Part shown: positions 2 to 35,976 of the stretch, piece by piece
Layout: the number at the start of each line of letters is the position of its first letter
How positions within the stretch are numbered: the first letter of the stretch is position 1
From: Acidobacteriota bacterium
GTDB taxonomy: Bacteria; Acidobacteriota; Thermoanaerobaculia; Gp7-AA8
Assembly: GCA_019244185.1 (NCBI GenBank)
Contig: JAFATB010000011.1
Location: 62,001-126,000 of the forward strand
Length of the DNA stretch: 64,000 nucleotides
Direction of reading: 5' to 3'
Made by a program: the position numbers and the translations under genes
Notes under the pieces: model-generated
Database searches by the model: none
What the model was told of the DNA's origin: nothing
The model's input: the letters and a program-made list of their open reading frames with translations, nothing else

Positions 2-1947
<1,946 letters not shown>

Positions 1948-1951
<4 letters not shown>

Positions 1952-4900
1952 CCGTGGACCCGCGTCTCAATGAGCGTTTAGCGAGTCTCTCGCCCGAGAA
2001 GCGCGCGCTGCTGCTTCAGCAAATCGCGCAGCGCGAGAAGCAGGCGAACGCGATCGCGCGCCGGCCGCGCCCCGCGCGCACCCCGCTCTCGTTCGCGCAG
2101 CAGCGCCTCTGGCTCCTCGATCAACTCGAGCCGGGCACGGCGAGCTACAACCTCGGCATCACCGCGTCGGTGCGCGGCCGCGTCGATGCCGCGCGCCTGC
2201 AACAGAGTCTCGACGCGGTCGTCGCGCGCCACGAATCACTGCGCACGACGTTCCCGTCCGAGAACGGCACGCCATGGCAGGAGATCGTGCCGTCGCTCGC
2301 GATTCCGCTGCAGCGCTTCGACGCGCGCGACCGCGCACACGCGCTCGACCTCGTGCGCGACGTCTACGCGACGCCGTTCGATCTCGCGCGCGGACCGCTC
2401 GCGCGCTTCCTGCTCATCCGCATCGGCGACGACGAGCACCTCCTCGCCGTCGCGTTTCACCACATCGTGATGGACGGCTGGTCCATCGGCGTCTTCTACC
2501 GCGAGCTGTTCGCGCTGTACGGCGGCGACACGCTCGACGAGCCGGCGCTGCAGTACGCCGACTTCGCGCTTTGGCAGCGCGAATGGCTGCAGGGCGACGT
2601 GCTCGACAAGCAGCTCGGCTACTGGAAAGACTGTCTCGCCGGCGAGCTGCCGGTGCTCGAGCTTCCGGCCTATCGCCCGCGTCCGCCCGTGCAGTCGTAT
2701 CGCGGCGAAGTCGCGCGCGTGAGCGTTCCGAACGACGTGCGGCGCGCGCTGCAGGAGCTCGCGCGGCGCGAGAACGCCACGCTCTTCATGGTTTTTCTTG
2801 CGGCGCTCAAGACGCTTTTGTTCCGTTACTCGGGACAGAGCGACGTCATCGTCGGCTCCGGCATCGCGAATCGCCACCGCCAGGAGCTCGAGCCGCTGGT
2901 CGGCTGCTTCGTCAACACGCTCGCGCTGCGCACCGACCTCGCCGGCAACCCGACGTTCCGCGAGCTGCTCGCGCGCGTCCGCGACGTCACGCTCGACGCG
3001 TACGCGCATCAGGACCTCCCGCTCGAACGCCTGCTCGAAGAGCTGCACGTCGAGCGCTCGATGAGCCGCTCGCCGCTCTTTCAGGTGATGCTCTTCTTCC
3101 AGAATCACGAGGGCTTCGCGACCAACGTTGCGGACCTCGAGCTGCGGCTCCTCGAGCTCGACGAGATCAACACCGGCACCGCGCGCACCGATCTCACGCT
3201 CTTCGTCGGCGTCGAAGCGGATCGCCTCGACGTCGTCTTCGAGTACGCGACCGATCTCTTCGACGCGGAGACGATCCGCGCGTTCGGCGCGCATCTCGTC
3301 GAGCTGCTGCGCCAGGTCGCGCGCGATCCCGAAGCGCGCGTCGGCGACGTCGTCTTCCTCTCCGATGCCGAACGCCACGAGCTCGTCGTCGCGCGCAACG
3401 CCACGCGACGCGACGTTCCCGCCGTTGCGGTGCATCGCCTCATCGAAGCGCAGGCCGCGAAGACGCCGGATGCGATCGCCGTCGTCGCGGGCAACGCGGC
3501 GCTCACGTATCGCGAGCTCGACACGCGCGCGAACGCGCTCGCCGCGGAATTGCACGCGCGCGGCATCGGGCGCGGCGATCTCGTCGGACTGCGCGCGGAC
3601 CGCGGCGTCGAACTGCTGATTGGACTCGTCGGCATTCTGAAATCGGGCGCCGCGTACGTGCCGCTCGATCCGTCGTTCCCCGAGGAGCGGCTCGCGTTCA
3701 TGATCGAAGACGCGGCGGTGAAGCTCGTCGTCGATGCGGCGATGTGCCGCATCGCGCGCGACGCCGAACGCATCGACGTCGAAGTCGATCCGAACGACCT
3801 CGCCTACGTCATCTTCACCTCGGGCTCGACGGGACGGCCGAAAGGCGTCGAGATCCCGCACGGCGCCGTCGTCAACTTCCTGCAGTCGATGGCGCGCACG
3901 CCGGGTCTCGCGGCGACCGACGTGTTCTGCGCCGTCACCACGCTCTCCTTCGACATCGCCGTGCTCGAGCTCCTGCTCCCGCTGACGGTCGGCGCGCGCG
4001 TCGTCATCGCCGATCGCGAAACCGCGGCCGACGGCATGCGCCTCGCGCGGCTCATCGCGGACAGCGGCACCACCGTCATGCAGGCAACGCCCGCGACGTG
4101 GCGCATGCTCGTCGACAGCGGCTGGAACGGCGGAGCGCATCTGAAGCTGCTGTGCGGCGGCGAGGCGCTGCCGCGCGAGCTCGCGGAGCGTTTGCTCGAT
4201 CGCTGCGGCGAGCTTTGGAATGTCTACGGCCCGACGGAAACGACAGTCTGGTCGTCGCTCGATCGCGTGACGAAGAACGACGCGATCACCATCGGCCGTC
4301 CGATCGACAACACCACGATGTACGTCGTCGACGCGCGTATGCAGCTCGTGCCCGACGGCGTCTCCGGCGAGCTGCTCATCGGCGGCGCCGGCGTCGCGCG
4401 CGGCTATCTCGCGCGTCCGGAGCTCACGCTCGAAAAGTTTATCGCCGATCCGTTCTCCGATGACGCGAACGCGCGCGTCTACCGCACCGGCGACATCGCG
4501 CGCTGTCGCCGCGACGGCCGTCTCGAAGTCCTCGGCCGCGGCGATCATCAGGTCAAGCTCCGCGGCTACCGCATCGAGCTCGGCGAGATCGAAAACGTGC
4601 TCGCGCGCCACGCGTCCGTCGTCGAATGCGTCGTCGTTGCGCGCGAAGATCGTCCCGGCGACAAGCGCCTCGTCGTGTACGTCGCCGGCGACTGCGACGC
4701 GAACGCGTTGCGCGCGCATCTGCGCGCGAGCCTGCCCGACTACATGGTGCCGTCCGCGTTCGTCGCGCTCGCCGCGTTGCCGCGCACGCCGAACGGCAAG
4801 ATCGACCGCAAGGCGCTGCCCGCGCCGGAAGCCGCCGACGTCGCCGTCGACGGCGCGCCGCGCAACGCCGACGAAGCGACGCTCGTGCAGATCTGGGCTG

Positions 4901-5184
4901 AGGTCCTCGGCACGCCGCGGCTCGGCATCCACGACGACTTCTTCGCGCACGGCGGACACTCGCTGCTCGCGACGCAGCTCATCGCGCGCGTCTCGAAATC
5001 GTTCGGCGTCGAGATTCCGCTGCGGCGGCTCTTCGATGCGCCGACGGTCGCGCAGTTCGCGGAAGCGGTCGTCGCGGAACAGCTCGCGCGCGTCGATGCG
5101 GCGGGACTCGACGCGATGCTGCTCGAGCTCGAAGGTCTTTCCGACGCGGACATTCGAGGAATGCTGGAGGCGGGATCGGCGTGA
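1948..5184 (+). CDS. Nonribosomal peptide synthetase, one module (C-A-PCP), glycine-like specificity code
   Basis: About 1078 aa. Residues ~40-470 are a condensation domain with intact HHIVMDG (first His near residue 171). Residues ~480-950 are an adenylation domain (FTSGSTGRPKG near 625, YGPTETTVWSS, NGKIDRKALP), and the carrier domain has GGHSLL with Ser near 1005. The ten-residue code read by eye is D-I-L-Q-L-G-V-V-W-K. The textbook glycine code (DhbF type) is DILQLGLIWK, so glycine is the best guess. The start is GTG at 1948, overlapping the previous stop as GTGA. GTG at 1954 is an alternative with better spacing from AAGGGA at 1940-1945. N-terminal helix (RLASLSPEKRALLLQQ) and C-terminal tail (LEGLSDAD) resemble short NRPS docking segments. 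Confidence 0.95.
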
Positions 5185-8100
5185 CGAACGAACCGCTCGC
5201 CGACCGGCTCGCGCGGCTCACGCCGCAACAGCGCGCGCTCCTCGCGCAGCAGCTCGCCGCGCGCGACAAAGGCGTGGTGCGCCGCGCCGATCCGCGCGCG
5301 CCGCTGCCGCTCGCGCCGGCGCAGCTGCGCATGTGGTTCCTCGAGGAACTGCAGCCCGGCACCGGCTCGTATCACGTCTATAACCACTACCGGCTGCGCG
5401 GCGCGCTCGACGTCGATGCGCTCGAACGCGCCGTGCGCGAGATCGTGCGGCGCCACGAGATGCTCCGCACGTCGTTCCACGCCGAAGACGGCGTGCCGGT
5501 GCAGGTGGTCGCGGAGAACGTCGAGCTCTTGATCGAGCGCGTCGATCTGCGCGGTGAAGCGGACCTCGACGCCCGCGCGCAGCGCATCGTCGACGACGCA
5601 ACCTTCCGTCCGTTCGATCTCGCACGCGCGCCGCTGATGCGCGTCGTGCTGGTCACGCTCCGCGACGACGAGCATCTGCTGCTGCTCGTCCTGCATCACA
5701 TCATCGCCGACGCGTGGTCGCTCGACGACGTCTTCGGCGGCGAGCTGGCCACGCTGTACAACGCGTCCGCCGCGAACGAGCCGTCTCCGCTCGCGGACGT
5801 GGCCGTGCACTTCGGCGACGTCGTGCTCTGGCAGCAGAGCGCCGCCCAACAGGCACGCGCGCAGGAACATCTGCGCTGGTGGAGTGACGAGCTGCGCGGG
5901 CTGCCCGACGCGCTCGATCTCCCGACCGATCGTCCGCGCCCGCTCGCACAGTCGTTCCGCGGCGCGCGGCACCGCTTCGCGCTCGAGAAGGAGCTGCTCG
6001 ACGCCCTGCAGGAGCTCGCGCGGCGCGAGCGCGTCACGTTGTTCATGCTCCTCCTCGCGGCCTTCGAAACGCTGCTGCATCGCTGGTCGGGGCAGGACGA
6101 CTTCGCGGTCGGCACGCCCGTGTCGACGCGCACGCGTCCGGAGATGGAGCCGGTGCTCGGGCTCTTCATCAACACCGTGGCCATTCGCGCGAGTGTCGCG
6201 GGCGATCCTACGTTTCGCGAGCTGCTCGTGCGCGTGCGCGACCGCGCGCTCGATGCGTTCGCGCATCAGGACGCGCCGTTCGAGCGCGTCGTCGAATCGC
6301 TCGGCCTCGAGCGCAGCACCAGCCGGTCGCCTGTCTATCAAACGATGCTCGTGCTCTGGAGCGGCGGCAACGTCGCGCGCGAGCTCGCCGGAATCACGCG
6401 CGAGTGGATCGAACCGGAGCAGCGCGTGTCGCGCTTCGACATGACGCTCGTCGCCGCCGCGGGCGACCGCGGTCTCGACGTGCTCTTCGACTACGCGACC
6501 GATCTCTTCGACACGCGGTCGATCGAGCGCTTCGGCCGCGCGTTCGCGACGTTACTGCGCGGCATCGTGCGCGATCCGGAACGGCGCGTCTCGCAACTGC
6601 CGCTGCTCGATGACGCCGAACGCGCGCAGGTGCTTCGCGCCTCGCGTGGCGAAACGCGCACGTGGCCGCGCACGACGCTGCATCAGCTCTTCAGCGAGCA
6701 GGCCGCCCGCACGCCCGAGGCGGACGCGATCGTCACGCCCGATCGCAGCGTCACGTACCGCGAGCTCGACATGTGGAGCGACGCCATCGCGTCCGACGTG
6801 CGCGGCGACATCGTCGCGTTCCACGCCGATCGTTCCGCCGACGCCATCGCCACGCTTCTCGGCATTCTCAAAGCGGGAGCGGCGTATCTGCCGATCGATC
6901 CGTCGACGCCCGCCGAACGCCGCGACTGGATGCTCGCCGACGCGGGCGCGGTGCTCTGGAATCGCGACAGCGACGCGCCGCGGCAGCGACGCGATGCGAA
7001 CGCCGCGTATCTCATCTACACCTCAGGCTCCACGGGACTGCCGAAAGGCGTCCTCGTCGAGCACGCGTCCGCGGTCAACCTCACGCTCGCGTTCATCGAG
7101 CTGCACGGCTTCGCCGGACATCGCGTGCTCGTGATTCCGCCGCTCGCGTTCGACGCATCCGTCGGCGACGTCTTCCCCGTGCTCGCCACGGGCGGCGCGC
7201 TTGTGCTGCATCCGTCGCCCGCGCAACTCGGCGCGGCGGAGCTCGCGGAGTTCTGCAGCGCGCGCGGCGTCACCGCGATCGACGCGCCGGCCGCACTCTG
7301 GCGCCGCTGGAGCGAAGAGTGGGTCGACATCCCCGCGCTGCGCATGATGATGGCCGGCGGCGAGAGCATCCCCGTCGAACAGGTGCGCCGCTTCGCGCGC
7401 GCGACACGCAACCGCGTCCGCTTCTTCAACCACTACGGGCCGACCGAGGCAACGGTGTGCGCGACGCTGTTCGCCACGACGGATGCGGCGGACGTGCAGG
7501 CGAGCGAGCTGCCGATCGGATTGCCGATCGCGAACGTCGCGGCGTACGTCGTCGATCGCAATCTCGAGCCGGTGCCCGATGGCGTCGCCGGCGAGCTTTG
7601 CCTCGGCGGCGCGGGCGTTTCGCGCGGCTATCTCGGACGTCGCGAACAGACGGCCGAACGCTTCGTCGCCGATCCGTTCAGCGACGTGGCGGGCGCGCGC
7701 ATGTACCGCACCGGCGACGTCGTGCGCCGCCAGAACGACGGCACGCTGCTTTTCCTCGGCCGCAGCGATCGGCAACTGAAACTGCGCGGCTTCCGCATCG
7801 AGCCGGGCGAGATCGAAGCGGCGATCCTCGCGTTCGGTGACATCCGCGGCGCGTTCGTCACGCTGCGCGAGCATCGGCTCGTCGCGTACGTCGTCGGCAG
7901 TTTCGACGCCGCCGCGTTGCGTGCGTTCCTGCAGGAGCGGCTGCCGGAGTACATGGTGCCTTCGGCGTTCGTCGCGCTCGACGCGCTGCCGCTCACGTCG
8001 AACGGCAAAGTCGATCAGCGCGCGCTGCCGGAGCCTCCGGTTGCGAGCGACCGCGCGATCGTCGCGCCGCGCAACGAGACCGAGGCCGCGCTCGTCGACA

Positions 8101-9473
8101 TTTGGCGCGCATTGCTGCGCGTCGACACGATCGGCGTCGACGACGACTTCTTCGAGCTCGGCGGCGACTCGCTGAAAACGATGCCGCTCGTCGTCCGCAT
8201 CCGCGAGCGCTTCGGCGTCTCGCTCCCGCTCGCCTCCATCTTCCAGTCGCCGACCGTCGCGCGCCTCGCGCAGCTCATCACCGGCGAGGCGAAGCTCGAA
8301 ACGATCTCGCTCGAGTCGCGCATCGGCGAGCCGATCGTGGCGGAGCCGGACGCGCTTCCCGCGACCTTCGCGCCGCCGCGCCACGTGCTGCTCACCGGCG
8401 CCACCGGCTTCCTCGGCGCGTTCCTGCTCCACGAACTGCTGCGCACGACGGATGCGGACATCGTCTGCCTCGTGCGCGCGAAGGACGACGCCGAAGGACG
8501 CGCGCGCATCGACAAGAACCTTGCCGCGTACGGATTGCGCGGCGATGCCTCGCGCATTCGCATCGTGCGCGGCGATCTCGCGCAGCCGCGGCTCGGCGTC
8601 GACGCCGACACGTGGGAACGCCTCGCGCGCGAGCTCGACGTCATCGTCCACAACGGCTCGACGGTCAGCTTCGTCACGCCGTACGAGAAGCTCGCCGCGG
8701 CGAACGTCGGCGGCACGCGCGAAGTGCTCCGTCTCGCGGGACGCGCGCGCATCAAGCCGGTGCACTTCGTCTCGACGCTCAGCGCGATCGACTTCGCGGC
8801 GGACGTCGTGAGCGACCGCGATCCGCTGCCGCCCGGCGAGCGCGTCGAAGGCGGCTACAACCAGAGCAAGTGGGTCGCGGACCGCATCGCCCAGGACGCG
8901 CGGGCGGGCGGTATTCCGGTGTCGATCCATCGCCCCGCGCGCGTCACCGGCGACAGCCGCACCGGCGCGTGGAACCACGCCGATCTTTTCCCGTCGTGGA
9001 TCAAGGCGTGCGTGCAGCTCGGTCTCATTCCGGAGAGTGATGCGGCGCTGAACATGACGCCGGTCGACTTCCTCGCCGCGGCGATCGTCCGGCTCGCGCT
9101 CGACCCGAACGCGCGGAACGGCACGTATCACTTCTTCAACAACCGCACGATGCCGCTCGCGCGCTTCGCCGACGCGTTGCGCGCGAAAGGCTTCGCGATC
9201 GAGAGCGTCCCCTACGCGACGTGGCGGCGCGCGCTCGTCGAGGCGATCGGCCGCGGCGACGACAACGCCCTCGCGCCGTTCATCGCGCTCTTTCCCGAGG
9301 AAGACGACAGCCGCGAGCCGCGCTTCGACACCGCGCACACCGACGACACGCTCGCCGCGCTCGGCCTCGTCTGTCCCGCCGCCGACGAGGCGCTCGTCTC
9401 CACGTACCTCGACTTCTTCATCGCGCGCGGGTTTCTGCCCGCGCCGCTTGCGGTCATCGGAGGCGAACGCTGA
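5181..9473 (+). CDS. Nonribosomal peptide synthetase, terminal module (C-A-PCP-thioester reductase)
   Basis: 1430 aa, GTG start overlapping the previous stop (GTGA), with GGAGG ten bases upstream. The condensation domain carries HHIIADAWS near residue 172, so the usual HHxxxDG glycine is alanine. Adenylation domain ~500-970 has YTSGSTGLPKG near 612 and YGPTEATVCAT; its code by eye is D-A-G-D-M-A-H-V-C-K, not assignable, though A-H-V recalls proline codes. The carrier serine is near 996 (LGGDSLK). From ~1065 a short-chain-dehydrogenase-type reductase follows: GATGFLG NAD(P)-binding loop, STLSAIDF and the YNQSK catalytic motif. Such domains release the thioester by NADPH reduction to an aldehyde or alcohol instead of hydrolysis. 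There is no thioesterase. It is the last NRPS gene of the operon. Confidence 0.95.
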   Translation: MTNEPLADRLARLTPQQRALLAQQLAARDKGVVRRADPRAPLPLAPAQLRMWFLEELQPGTGSYHVYNHYRLRGALDVDALERAVREIVRRHEMLRTSFHAEDGVPVQVVAENVELLIERVDLRGEADLDARAQRIVDDATFRPFDLARAPLMRVVLVTLRDDEHLLLLVLHHIIADAWSLDDVFGGELATLYNASAANEPSPLADVAVHFGDVVLWQQSAAQQARAQEHLRWWSDELRGLPDALDLPTDRPRPLAQSFRGARHRFALEKELLDALQELARRERVTLFMLLLAAFETLLHRWSGQDDFAVGTPVSTRTRPEMEPVLGLFINTVAIRASVAGDPTFRELLVRVRDRALDAFAHQDAPFERVVESLGLERSTSRSPVYQTMLVLWSGGNVARELAGITREWIEPEQRVSRFDMTLVAAAGDRGLDVLFDYATDLFDTRSIERFGRAFATLLRGIVRDPERRVSQLPLLDDAERAQVLRASRGETRTWPRTTLHQLFSEQAARTPEADAIVTPDRSVTYRELDMWSDAIASDVRGDIVAFHADRSADAIATLLGILKAGAAYLPIDPSTPAERRDWMLADAGAVLWNRDSDAPRQRRDANAAYLIYTSGSTGLPKGVLVEHASAVNLTLAFIELHGFAGHRVLVIPPLAFDASVGDVFPVLATGGALVLHPSPAQLGAAELAEFCSARGVTAIDAPAALWRRWSEEWVDIPALRMMMAGGESIPVEQVRRFARATRNRVRFFNHYGPTEATVCATLFATTDAADVQASELPIGLPIANVAAYVVDRNLEPVPDGVAGELCLGGAGVSRGYLGRREQTAERFVADPFSDVAGARMYRTGDVVRRQNDGTLLFLGRSDRQLKLRGFRIEPGEIEAAILAFGDIRGAFVTLREHRLVAYVVGSFDAAALRAFLQERLPEYMVPSAFVALDALPLTSNGKVDQRALPEPPVASDRAIVAPRNETEAALVDIWRALLRVDTIGVDDDFFELGGDSLKTMPLVVRIRERFGVSLPLASIFQSPTVARLAQLITGEAKLETISLESRIGEPIVAEPDALPATFAPPRHVLLTGATGFLGAFLLHELLRTTDADIVCLVRAKDDAEGRARIDKNLAAYGLRGDASRIRIVRGDLAQPRLGVDADTWERLARELDVIVHNGSTVSFVTPYEKLAAANVGGTREVLRLAGRARIKPVHFVSTLSAIDFAADVVSDRDPLPPGERVEGGYNQSKWVADRIAQDARAGGIPVSIHRPARVTGDSRTGAWNHADLFPSWIKACVQLGLIPESDAALNMTPVDFLAAAIVRLALDPNARNGTYHFFNNRTMPLARFADALRAKGFAIESVPYATWRRALVEAIGRGDDNALAPFIALFPEEDDSREPRFDTAHTDDTLAALGLVCPAADEALVSTYLDFFIARGFLPAPLAVIGGER

Positions 9474-31869: not shown

Positions 31870-33270
<1,401 letters not shown>

Positions 33271-33305
33271 CCGGGAGCGCCTCCGGCGGGGCGGCACGGC
33301 CGCCA

Positions 33306-33368
33306 GCGCTTAGGGCCTAGCCGATTTGCACGTGCGGCTGCCCTCGAGCGCACTTATCGTGCAGGCGG
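33306..33368 (+). repeat. Dispersed intergenic element, copy B
   Basis: A 63-bp copy of the element at 18974-19035: GCGCTTAGGGCCTAGCC, then TGCACGTGCGGCTGC (identical), CTCGAG and GCAGGCGG. It is again preceded by a GC-rich inverted repeat (GGCGG-CACGG-CCGCC, near 33290-33304). It lies between hslU and the HicA-like gene, with no coding potential. Confidence 0.65.
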
Positions 33369-33402
33369 GATTGGTGCAGGAAATCCGCTACAATGCGGCT
33401 CG

Positions 33403-33657
33403 ATGACTCGCCGGGCGATCCTTCGTCACCTCGGGCTGCACGACGTCGTGGCAGACGAGAGCGGCCGCAGCGGAACGCTCGTGCGCAACACGCGCAACGG
33501 CCTCACGACGGTGCTGCCGCGCGGGGCGGTCATCGACGATCTGATTGTCGAGACGGTCTGCAAGCTGCTCGACGTGCCGCTGCCGCCGTCGCTCAGCGAC
33601 CGACCACGATCCGCTCGCGCCGGATCACGCGCGCCCTCGCGAAACTCTCGTGGGTGA
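33403..33657 (+). CDS. HicA-like small protein lacking the expected histidine
   Basis: 84 aa. It resembles the HicA group whose core reads RHSxWxNP...PRHxEIKDLLxxKICxDLGVPPP: here RSGTLVRNTRNGLTTVLPRGAVIDDLIVETVCKLLDVPLPP. HicA toxins are mRNA interferases with a catalytic histidine in the first motif; that position, and the His of PRH, are not histidine here. It may therefore be inactive or a relative. A -10 (TACAAT, 33389-33394) sits just nine bases before ATG. Its last 65 bases overlap the opposite-strand HicB-like gene tail to tail, encoding a basic tail. Confidence 0.6.
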   Translation: MTRRAILRHLGLHDVVADESGRSGTLVRNTRNGLTTVLPRGAVIDDLIVETVCKLLDVPLPPSLSDRPRSARAGSRAPSRNSRG

Positions 33658-33820
33658 CGCGGCGGTTCGCCGCGAGAATCAGCTCCACCGCTTCCGCGAG
33701 ATTCTTCCGCGCTTCGTCGACGTCCTTCCCCTGCGCATGCGCGCCCGGTAGTTCCTCGACGTACGCCACGCACACTCCCGACTCGCCCTCGACGAACACC
33801 GCGGTGAACATATGCTGCAT
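33593..33820 (-). CDS. HicB-like antitoxin
   Basis: 75 aa. The N-terminal half matches the HicB fold: FTAVFVEGESGVCVAYVEELPGAHAQGKDVDEARKNLAEAVELIL, the typical pattern YVEELPGA-QG-x-DEAxxNLxEA. No DNA-binding domain follows, only a short basic tail. ATG 33820 (or 33811) lies eleven bases from a TATACT -10 (33832-33837, minus). Standard hicAB genes are in tandem on one strand; this one faces the HicA-like gene and overlaps it by 65 bases. Orphan HicB-like proteins also occur, so partnership is not certain. Confidence 0.8.
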   Translation of the reverse strand: MQHMFTAVFVEGESGVCVAYVEELPGAHAQGKDVDEARKNLAEAVELILAANRRVTHESFARARVIRRERIVVGR

Positions 33821-33931
33821 GCGCGGTGTGTAGTATAGGTGGCTCGCTCGGAAAATTGAAGCGCTTCGCCGCCCCCTGTTTTACGCCGGAACTTACACAT
33901 TCCCCTCGGGTTAGCTTGCTCCGCGTGCAGG

Positions 33932-35032
33932 TCAGGAGACGGTCTTCTTGAACGCGCGCGCCGACGCCGCGATGAGCACCGCGGAGATCGCGAGCAGCGA
34001 CAGCACCGGCTCCCACAAATCCGCGAACGTGGCGCCGCGAATCACGATCCCGCGCGCGATCTTGATGAAGTGCGTGGCCGGCAACAGGTACGACACGACG
34101 CGCAACGGCGCCGGCAGCGACGCGAGCGGAAAGACGTAGCCGGACAGGAGCACCGACGGCAGCATGATCCCCATCGCCTGCTGCATCGCTTCCATCTGCG
34201 AGCCCGCGCGCGAGGAGATCAACAAGCCGAAGGACAGCAGCGCAAACAGATACACGCACGAGAGGCTGAGCAGCAGCACGACGCTTCCGTTGAACGGCAC
34301 GCGGAAGAGGAAGCGCATGAGCAGCAGCACGACCGTGAGCGTGACGTACGCGAGTCCGAGGTACGGCAGGATCTTGCCGAGGACCACGGCGAGCGGCGAG
34401 ACGGGCGTGACCATCAGCTGCTCGAGCGTGCCGCGCTCGCGCTCCTTCACGATCGCGAACGCGGAGAGGATCGTGCCGGAGAACGTGAGCAGGATGGCGA
34501 TGAGGCCGGGGATGAGCAGGTTCGCGCTGCGCATGTCGGGATTGAAGAGCATCACCGGATGCGCCTCGATGCGCGCGCGATTCCGCTGCTCCAGTAACGC
34601 TTGCAGATCGTTCTGCAGCACCACACCATTTGCAGCGGAAAGCGCCTGTGACGCGGTGCTCGAATCCGAGCCGTCGATGAGCACGAGCACGTGCGCGTCG
34701 CGTTGCGCCGCGAGATTGCGCGCGTAGTCGGGCGGGATCTCGACGCCGACCTGCGCGTGTCCGGCGACGATCTCGTGTTGTAGCTCGTCGCGCGACGGCG
34801 CCATCTCGATGATCCGCAAGAGTCCGGTCGCGCCGAATTGCTCGATGAGCCGGCGGCTCTCCTGCGTCTTGCTTTGATCGAAGACCACCGTCGGGATGTT
34901 CTTCGCGTTCATGTCGATGACGCCGAAGAGGATCAGCTCGAACACCGGCACCGCCAGCGCGAACATGATCGTGACGCGGTCGCGCATCATCTGCGTCAGC
35001 TCTTTGCGAAACACCGCGCCGAAGCCGTTCAT
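33932..35032 (-). CDS. ABC-2 type exporter permease
   Basis: 366 aa from ATG 35032. One N-terminal membrane helix (VTIMFALAVPVFELILFGVI), a large external loop (~40-180), then five helices, as in the YbhR/YbhS/ABC2_membrane_3 family. The conserved SAFAIVKERERGTLEQLMVTP is the coupling region of ABC-2 permeases. It is the last gene of a TetR-HlyD-ATPase-permease operon. E. coli ybhGFSR has two permeases; here there is one, presumably a homodimer. ATG overlaps the ATPase stop by four bases. Confidence 0.92.
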   Translation of the reverse strand: MNGFGAVFRKELTQMMRDRVTIMFALAVPVFELILFGVIDMNAKNIPTVVFDQSKTQESRRLIEQFGATGLLRIIEMAPSRDELQHEIVAGHAQVGVEIPPDYARNLAAQRDAHVLVLIDGSDSSTASQALSAANGVVLQNDLQALLEQRNRARIEAHPVMLFNPDMRSANLLIPGLIAILLTFSGTILSAFAIVKERERGTLEQLMVTPVSPLAVVLGKILPYLGLAYVTLTVVLLLMRFLFRVPFNGSVVLLLSLSCVYLFALLSFGLLISSRAGSQMEAMQQAMGIMLPSVLLSGYVFPLASLPAPLRVVSYLLPATHFIKIARGIVIRGATFADLWEPVLSLLAISAVLIAASARAFKKTVS

Positions 35033-35976
35033 CGCGTCGCTTCCAGTTCGGTGAGCCGCACGAACACGTCCTCGAGCGTCGGCTCGATGTCCTTCGTGCG
35101 CACGGCGCCGCTGCCGAACGACTGCAGGTCGCGGTCGAGGCGTTCGTTCGAGATGCTTTGATCGACCAGCAGATGCAGCGACGTGCCGAAGATCGTCGAC
35201 GCGTGCACATACGGCAGCGTGCGCGCGCTGGCCATCAGCGTCGCGACGCCTTCCCGGCCTTCCGCCTCGACGCGCCGCATGCCTTCCGGCGTGACTTCCT
35301 TCATCCGCTTCAGCGCTTCCGGATGTCCGCTCACGATGAGCTTCGAGAGGTAGAGATACGCGACCGTGCCGCAGCGCTCGGCCTCGTCCATGTAGTGCGT
35401 GGTGACGAACATCGTGACGTTCTCCGCGGCGAGGCCGAACAGCAGGTCCCACAACTCGCGCCGCGCGACGGGATCGATGCCCGCGGTCGGCTCGTCGAGA
35501 AAGAGCACGCGCGGCTGATGCATGAGCGCGGCGGCGAGCGCGAGTCGCTGCTTCCAGCCGCCGGAGAGTGCGCCCGCGAGCCGATCGCGATACGGGCCGA
35601 TGTGCGTCAGCTCGATCGCCCACTCCTTGCGCTGCTTTCGCTCCGCGCCTTTGAGCCGATAGATCGAGCTGAAGAAATCGAGGTTCTCATCGACCGTCAG
35701 ATCGCGATAGAGCGAGAACGCCTGCGAGACGTAGCCGATGTGGCGACGCACTTCCTCGCCCTCGCGGACCACGTCGATGCCGTCGACGCTCGCGCTGCCG
35801 GACGTCGGCGCGAGCAGACCGCACAGGATGCGGATGAGCGTCGACTTGCCGGAACCGTTTGGCCCGAGGAGGCCGAAGATCGTGCCGCGCGGCACTTCGA
35901 GGGAGACGTCGTCGAGCGCCCGTACGGAGCCGAACGCCTTCGAGACGTGACGGACGTCGATGCCGACGTCCGTCAT
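35029..35976 (-). CDS. ABC transporter ATP-binding protein (multidrug/ABC-2 type)
   Basis: 315 aa from ATG 35976. Walker A GPNGSGKST, Q-loop IGYVSQAFSLYRDLTVDENL, signature LSGGWKQRL, Walker B VLFLDEPTAGIDP, switch His in VTTHYMDEAERC. The signature has W where LSGGM/LSGGQ is usual, as in many ABC-2 exporters. The C-terminal ~90 residues (from ALKRMKEVTP) form the accessory domain of drug-exporter ATPases and end LEDVFVRLTELEA. Overlaps HlyD upstream and the permease downstream by four bases each. Confidence 0.95.
   Translation of the reverse strand: MTDVGIDVRHVSKAFGSVRALDDVSLEVPRGTIFGLLGPNGSGKSTLIRILCGLLAPTSGSASVDGIDVVREGEEVRRHIGYVSQAFSLYRDLTVDENLDFFSSIYRLKGAERKQRKEWAIELTHIGPYRDRLAGALSGGWKQRLALAAALMHQPRVLFLDEPTAGIDPVARRELWDLLFGLAAENVTMFVTTHYMDEAERCGTVAYLYLSKLIVSGHPEALKRMKEVTPEGMRRVEAEGREGVATLMASARTLPYVHASTIFGTSLHLLVDQSISNERLDRDLQSFGSGAVRTKDIEPTLEDVFVRLTELEATR

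Follow-up and report, generated by a model that had tools for sequence, protein, structure and literature searches.

The HicA toxins and their HicB antitoxins have been described from hicAB and hicBA operons (PMC11594946) and, in the description of TADB 3.0, type II–VII toxin–antitoxin loci typically lie in tandem on one strand, an operon rule that is kept in TAfinder 2.0 (PMC10767807). Gerdes (2024) distinguished 14 contexts of HicA, the class list of which contains no convergent one; solitary hicB genes are mentioned in the same work (PMC10865869), and a marine survey counts HicB among the common orphan antitoxins (PMC12654330). No convergent hicA/hicB pair was found in the literature that we searched, which left most subscription papers and supplements outside its scope. 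In the locus described here a HicA-like gene and a hicB gene face each other behind hslU. As judged from its sequence and from those of its relatives, the pair appears to be a disarmed member of a convergent HicA/HicB toxin–antitoxin variant that is so far known from one Acidobacteriota family.

The pair and the identity of its two proteins

The window, by which we mean the whole stretch of 64 000 nucleotides that was analysed, corresponds to G000:C15:62001-126000, G000 being the window's own genome, and has a G+C content of 66%. The features of the locus are as follows.

31870..33270, + strand: hslU (ClpY), from the ORF list and by synteny; its C-terminal part is matched in 17 of 17 genomes
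33389..33394, + strand: TACAAT, a −10-like box 8 nt upstream of the hicA ATG
33403..33657, + strand: HicA-like gene of 84 codons without the histidines (ATG 33403, TGA 33657); the HicA domain is codons 1–62
33593..33657, both strands: coding overlap of the hicA-like gene and hicB, 65 nt including the stops
33593..33820, − strand: hicB, 75 codons with a single UPF0150-like domain (ATG 33820, TGA 33593)
33832..33837, − strand: TATACT, a −10-like box 11 nt upstream of the hicB ATG
33932..35623, − strand: right-hand neighbour, an ABC-2 type permease ORF, the function of which was read from the sequence alone

The sequence-only reading had placed a HicA-like gene on the plus strand and a HicB-like gene on the minus strand, converging with an overlap of 65 bases; both ORFs lie at these positions and the overlap is exactly 65 nt. 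Elsewhere in the window, at 541-9473, we note two large ORFs (1547 and 1430 aa) which, from the ORF list only, resemble non-ribosomal peptide synthetases.

Long chance ORFs are common at 66% G+C, and Pfam and NCBIfam scans of the 84-aa protein gave no match at E 10, PF07927 included. A search of the PDB by sequence also returned no HicA, the sole result being an Ankyrin row at E 1.5 that we ascribe to chance. The base composition and the lack of a Pfam match would suit a chance ORF next to an orphan hicB, but this reading is already contradicted by the profile score of the protein and by synteny with G014, a genome of the same family in which an intact HicA has the same position and orientation, and we give it next to no credence. 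The profile in question combines 37 HicA domains, all from other loci; the window and G010, a genome of a different genus, contributed none. It gave 26.4 bits for the window protein and 14.4 bits for that of G010, above the best scores from 2000 shuffles of each (10.7 and 8.3 bits, respectively, with 1696 and 1675 scored). The window protein also ranked first among the 750 ORFs of at least 40 codons in the window, ahead of 749 others, the best of which reached 5.9 bits. Homologues of this protein, the absence of which would have counted against the sequence-only reading, do exist: a protein search of the genomes of 60 relatives gave HicA matches in G024, G017 and G047 with E values from 8.9e-6 to 4.8e-4. 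From these scores we regard the 84-aa ORF as a true HicA homologue over the whole domain. A PADLOC scan of the protein gave a single row, AbiP2 at E 0.054, which was taken as chance.

An AlphaFold2 model, made with 25 HicAs from viral contigs in the alignment, has the element order H-E-E-E-H with a mean pLDDT of 83.4; the HicA relatives in the alignment do bias such a model toward the HicA fold. The closest structure to the model is that of E. coli HicA (6hpb_A; Z 9.1, r.m.s. difference 1.4, 55 residues), for which Foldseek gives a probability of 0.99 with an E value of only 0.15. A model from the single sequence reproduces this order, with a pLDDT of 55.7. The protein is thus predicted to adopt the α-β-β-β-α dsRBD-like fold of the HicA family.

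The HicB protein matches the Pfam family UPF0150-like with an E value of 1.9e-5 and 24.9 bits, slightly below the cut-off of 27.3, and HicB_lk_antitox with an E value of 0.008, and homologues are present in 21 of the 60 relatives. These matches show homology with the HicB antitoxin family (UPF0150/HicB domain). A domain search found no DNA-binding domain in the 75-codon HicB. Compared with seven relatives, the identity of hicB is 0.60–0.70, 0.63–0.73 and 0.36–0.41 at the first, second and third codon positions, respectively; the third positions being much more variable than the other two, the HicB protein is under purifying selection. The position of the TATACT box differs among hicB copies and shows no conservation.

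The convergent layout and the region behind hslU

The sequence-only reading held that known hicAB modules are tandem, and this agrees with our survey: with 31 partial hits excluded, 151 of the 154 full-length HicAs that have a HicB neighbour are tandem and three (those of the window, G014 and G017) are convergent. The class-level set of 47 distinct full-length HicAs comprises 41 tandem hicBA, one tandem hicAB and three convergent cases and two without a HicB neighbour. The 89 phylum loci (L255-L343), which are the stronger of the listed HicA matches beyond the loci fetched earlier, include 79 full-length HicAs (74 BA, four AB and one with neither). The PF07927 set of the family, with repeats removed, has three BA, four AB and one with neither, and the viral contigs have ten, 14 and eight, respectively. 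The G010 protein fell below the threshold of the layout script and its convergent pair was added by synteny. We also note tandem hicBA loci with hicA split over two frames and hicB intact (L074:13159-13564, L079:1324-1692 and L097:989-1372).

Looking for the same convergent layout elsewhere, as had been proposed, turned up intact pairs in G014 and G017 and a pair without the histidines in G010. The G017 pair (hicA 619-813, + strand; hicB 814-1068, − strand) is on a separate contig from hslU and lies behind gene X. Both intact convergent HicAs exceed the Pfam HicA_toxin cut-off of 27 bits, at 46.6 for G017 and 38.0 for G014. None of the four pairs, in the window, G014, G017 and G010, has the tandem same-strand order of a type II module. 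From its recurrence in these genomes the convergent layout appears to be an inherited arrangement and not a private accident of the window.

The region behind hslU was read in 18 genomes of the family, in five of which it holds the pair, whole or partial. In G014, hslU is followed by an intact hicA, hicB on the opposite strand and gene X; in G000 by the hicA without histidines, hicB and the permease; and in G010 by a second, different hicA without histidines, hicB and the permease. In G001, which belongs to the genus of the window, hslU is followed by a 19-codon hicA remnant, consisting of the two ends with the middle gone, an intact hicB and the permease. G005 has an N-terminal fragment of hicB behind hslU and then gene X. 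The pair is absent from G002, which has gene X in this place, from G007, G008 and G015, which have the permease, and from G011, which has a hemerythrin-like gene and then the permease, so that the permease is also found behind hslU in G001, G010, G007, G008, G011 and G015. Other genes, and no pair, lie behind hslU in G003, G004, G006, G009, G012, G013, G016 and G017. A profile scan up to 2.5 kb behind hslU covered 101 of 104 loci (18 + 6 + 80; hslU was not found in three) and, beyond the five family genomes, gave one clear HicA/HicB pair, L119, which is on the same strand and about 1.5 kb behind hslU. Gene X belongs to a family of secreted-looking proteins that lies beside the pair, on differing sides, in G005, G014 and G017 and occurs behind hslU without the pair in G002 (L003:137-568 and the regions behind hslU in L057, L060 and L102).

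With orthology of all five copies assumed, the simplest history would be that of one convergent module behind hslU which on several occasions was either disarmed or lost. The alignment of 45 HicB rows offers too few columns for its tree to decide how the copies beside hslU descended. The G010 genome is 86% complete and 6% contaminated. A common ancestor of the window and G010 genes that already lacked the histidines was considered and is not established. The residue counts point the other way, with 14 of 62 residues identical between the two HicAs and 20 of 61 between those of the window and the intact G017. A four-gene tree leaves the two genera ungrouped, with grouping neither supported nor rejected (p-AU 0.358), and the HslU tree leaves their relation without resolution.

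Loss of the histidines and the fate of the toxin gene

Histidines were counted by alignment column in 167 distinct full-length HicA domains, those of the window and G010 included. Both the catalytic histidine, at the start of β2, and the histidine of the PRH motif are present in 156 of these. The catalytic histidine is found in 162 and is missing from five rows, among which L040 is probably a one-position alignment slip; six domains lack only the PRH histidine. Both are missing from just two, the window and G010, each from the hslU-side locus. The aligned columns of the window protein hold Gly and Gly, as expected from the earlier statement that it has no histidine at the catalytic position or in PRH. 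It is also without the nearby basic residues, and many near-invariant residues of the family are gone. In gonococcal HicA the residue that matches the catalytic histidine, His24, is needed for growth arrest and the later His40 is not, and mutation of His24 abolishes toxicity (PMC12297915). Having lost the catalytic histidine, the PRH histidine and the nearby basic residues, the window HicA should not cut RNA, and by analogy with the gonococcal protein it is predicted to be non-toxic. We note two further HicAs, at L026:1498-1671 (G138) and L287 (G167 C71), in which the catalytic histidine is replaced by Leu or Asn, PRH is kept and the order is the ordinary hicBA; these are further candidate inactive toxins.

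The sequence-only reading had offered two views of the pair: it could have been remodelled into a system under antisense control, or the toxin could have decayed and left the antitoxin behind. A working remodelled system, in which the two RNAs control each other as antisense and the HicA-like protein functions although the usual histidines are missing, would draw on the 65-nt coding overlap and on the separate −10-like boxes. It would also draw on the fact that a scan of 33150-34000 found no intrinsic terminator, nor any sigma-70 site; lacking a terminator there, the transcripts may run into each other. The coding sequences of the intact convergent pairs, however, do not overlap, being separated by a 3-nt gap in G014 and having abutting stops in G017, so that the overlap is confined to the disarmed copies and does not have to underlie any mechanism. 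At its C-terminal end the HicA-like protein has ~20 residues of Arg-rich read-through on the strand antisense to hicB. Past codon 62 the tails of G000 and G010 are conserved at codon positions 1 and 3 and not at 2, and thus follow hicB, not hicA, as if hicB alone were constrained. When it is added that the PRH histidine and the basic residues were lost besides the catalytic histidine, a system of this kind seems very improbable to us. What the comparison supports in the earlier proposal is a toxin whose RNase residues are gone, next to a HicB that purifying selection maintains; antisense control might still operate, but the overlap on which that idea was based is absent from both intact pairs. 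The Arg-rich tail was also considered as a new RNA-binding part, an idea that was dropped because its conservation tracks hicB.

Plain decay would make the toxin gene a pseudogene in progress with a frame that is still open, and HicB would survive by neutralizing other HicAs or by inertia. Several observations are consistent with this. At the hslU locus G001, of the same genus, keeps only the two ends of hicA with its intact hicB, and G005 retains just the hicB fragment. Frame-split hicA genes lie beside intact hicB in the family and the class (G001 C21, G009 C48 and G081 C163), and the solitary hicB genes already on record (PMC10865869, PMC12654330) fit as well. There are HicB copies without HicA in the fetched flanks in G000 C6, G001 C21 and G017 C30, and G000 encodes a further HicA of canonical type at C26:114332, so that HicB could persist even in the absence of the window HicA. 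The first of these HicB copies (L072:1396-1672 in G000 C6) is 57% identical to the HicB of the window, lacks a HicA within the 3.3 kb retrieved and is flanked by a small HTH-like gene and a LexA-like gene.

Set against decay is the state of the toxin gene itself, which despite the lost near-invariant residues keeps its start, −10 box, open frame and codon composition, and does so in two genomes of different genera. The G+C contents at the three positions of codons 1–62 are 0.74/0.45/0.89 in the window and 0.58/0.42/0.87 in G010, compared with 0.68/0.38/0.89 in hslU; the differences between the third and second positions (0.44 and 0.45, respectively) are near that of hslU (0.51). Translation of the 84-aa frame is suggested by this codon signature. 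The pattern TANAAT precedes the start by 6–8 nt in all four open convergent hicA copies (G000, G010, G014 and G017) and is lost in the G001 remnant; on the plus strand of the window it precedes one of 1621 ATG or GTG codons, and the hicA site fits it. The −10 boxes were first spotted by eye and counted afterwards. A TANAAT lying only 6–8 nt from the start (L003, L076, L082 and window 33389-33402) suggests mRNAs with little or no leader. The geometry of the window and G010 pairs is identical (84 and 75 codons, a 65-nt overlap and the same phase), and the distance from the hicA start to the hicB stop is 190 nt in both, 198 nt in G014 and 195 nt in G017.

Neutral evolution was simulated by substitutions without indels, stopped at the observed profile score. 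With G014 or G017 as ancestors, 0–0.2% of runs kept the frame open together with the start, the box and the codon signature; starting from low-scoring ancestors emitted by the profile, all features were retained in 6.9–7.9% of runs for the window and 0.5–1.1% for G010. In an earlier simulation the codon signature alone was kept in 0–1% of runs at matching scores. The similarity between the window and G010 genes is above chance at the first two codon positions (p 0.003 jointly) and not clearly so at the third (p 0.19), a pattern that fits coding constraint without dating its end. In our view these data place retention of the dead HicA slightly above its decay, and we treat decay as a serious possibility, if not the one that we would choose.

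Proposed history and comparison with known systems

The account that we favour, with modest confidence as a whole, is that of an ancestral convergent module whose toxin was disarmed in the window and whose dead HicA has probably been retained. A small HicA/HicB module resembling Class 2 of Gerdes would have turned convergent, most simply via inversion of one gene, and its position behind hslU would go back to an ancestor of this Acidobacteriota family. In its ancestral form, as in G014, hicA would have had its own −10 box by the start codon and intact RNase residues. In the species of the window HicA would then have lost the catalytic histidine, the PRH histidine and the nearby basic residues, and HicB would have been kept by purifying selection. 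Since the dead HicA retains a start codon, a −10 box, the core that forms the fold and the codon signature of a coding gene, we think it more likely than not that the protein is still produced and that the gene is not a pure pseudogene; it would serve HicB as a partner that does no harm, or regulate it, and in either role it would presumably bind HicB. A more far-reaching version, which we offer tentatively and think rather unlikely as it stands, is that this lineage made a type II module convergent at the 3′ end of hslVU and that at least two genera disarmed the toxin yet kept it as a non-catalytic HicA-fold partner or sink for HicB under its own promoter, the −10 box of which lies near the start codon, with head-on transcripts lowering the output of each other.

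Finders that look for operons on one strand, such as TAfinder 2.0 as described (PMC10767807), would miss convergent protein–protein pairs by design. The intact pairs of G014 and G017 would exemplify a type II module to which neither translational coupling nor an antitoxin-first order is available, and the decay series behind hslU would offer stepwise loss of a toxin with the antitoxin kept, which makes the reuse of dead toxins testable.

The convergent arrangement matches none of the HicA context classes 1–14 of Gerdes, as these are given in the class list without the supplementary tables. The closest described system is the Class 2 hicBA module (PMC10865869), which likewise has a small HicA and a small HicB (63–103 codons) without a recognisable DNA-binding domain, and hicBA is the order of nearly all of the relatives found in the phylum. 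It differs in being a tandem operon with the antitoxin first, whereas the genes of the window converge on opposite strands. Class 1 hicAB modules share the small HicA and the small HicB without a DNA-binding domain, but they are tandem with the toxin first, and the nearest relatives of the convergent HicAs are mostly hicBA. The E. coli HicAB system (6hpb) resembles the window in the predicted fold of HicA; its HicB, in contrast, has an HTH domain and its genes are described as tandem (PMC11594946). Type I systems, as characterized in TADB 3.0 (PMC10767807), also have the toxin gene and the antitoxin on opposite strands, but there the antitoxin is an RNA and in the window it is the HicB protein. 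Finally, the solitary hicB genes and orphan antitoxins mentioned by Gerdes and in the marine survey (PMC10865869, PMC12654330) are like G001 at the hslU locus in that HicB has outlasted its toxin; the window and G010 differ from these in that a full-length ORF with the predicted HicA fold persists.
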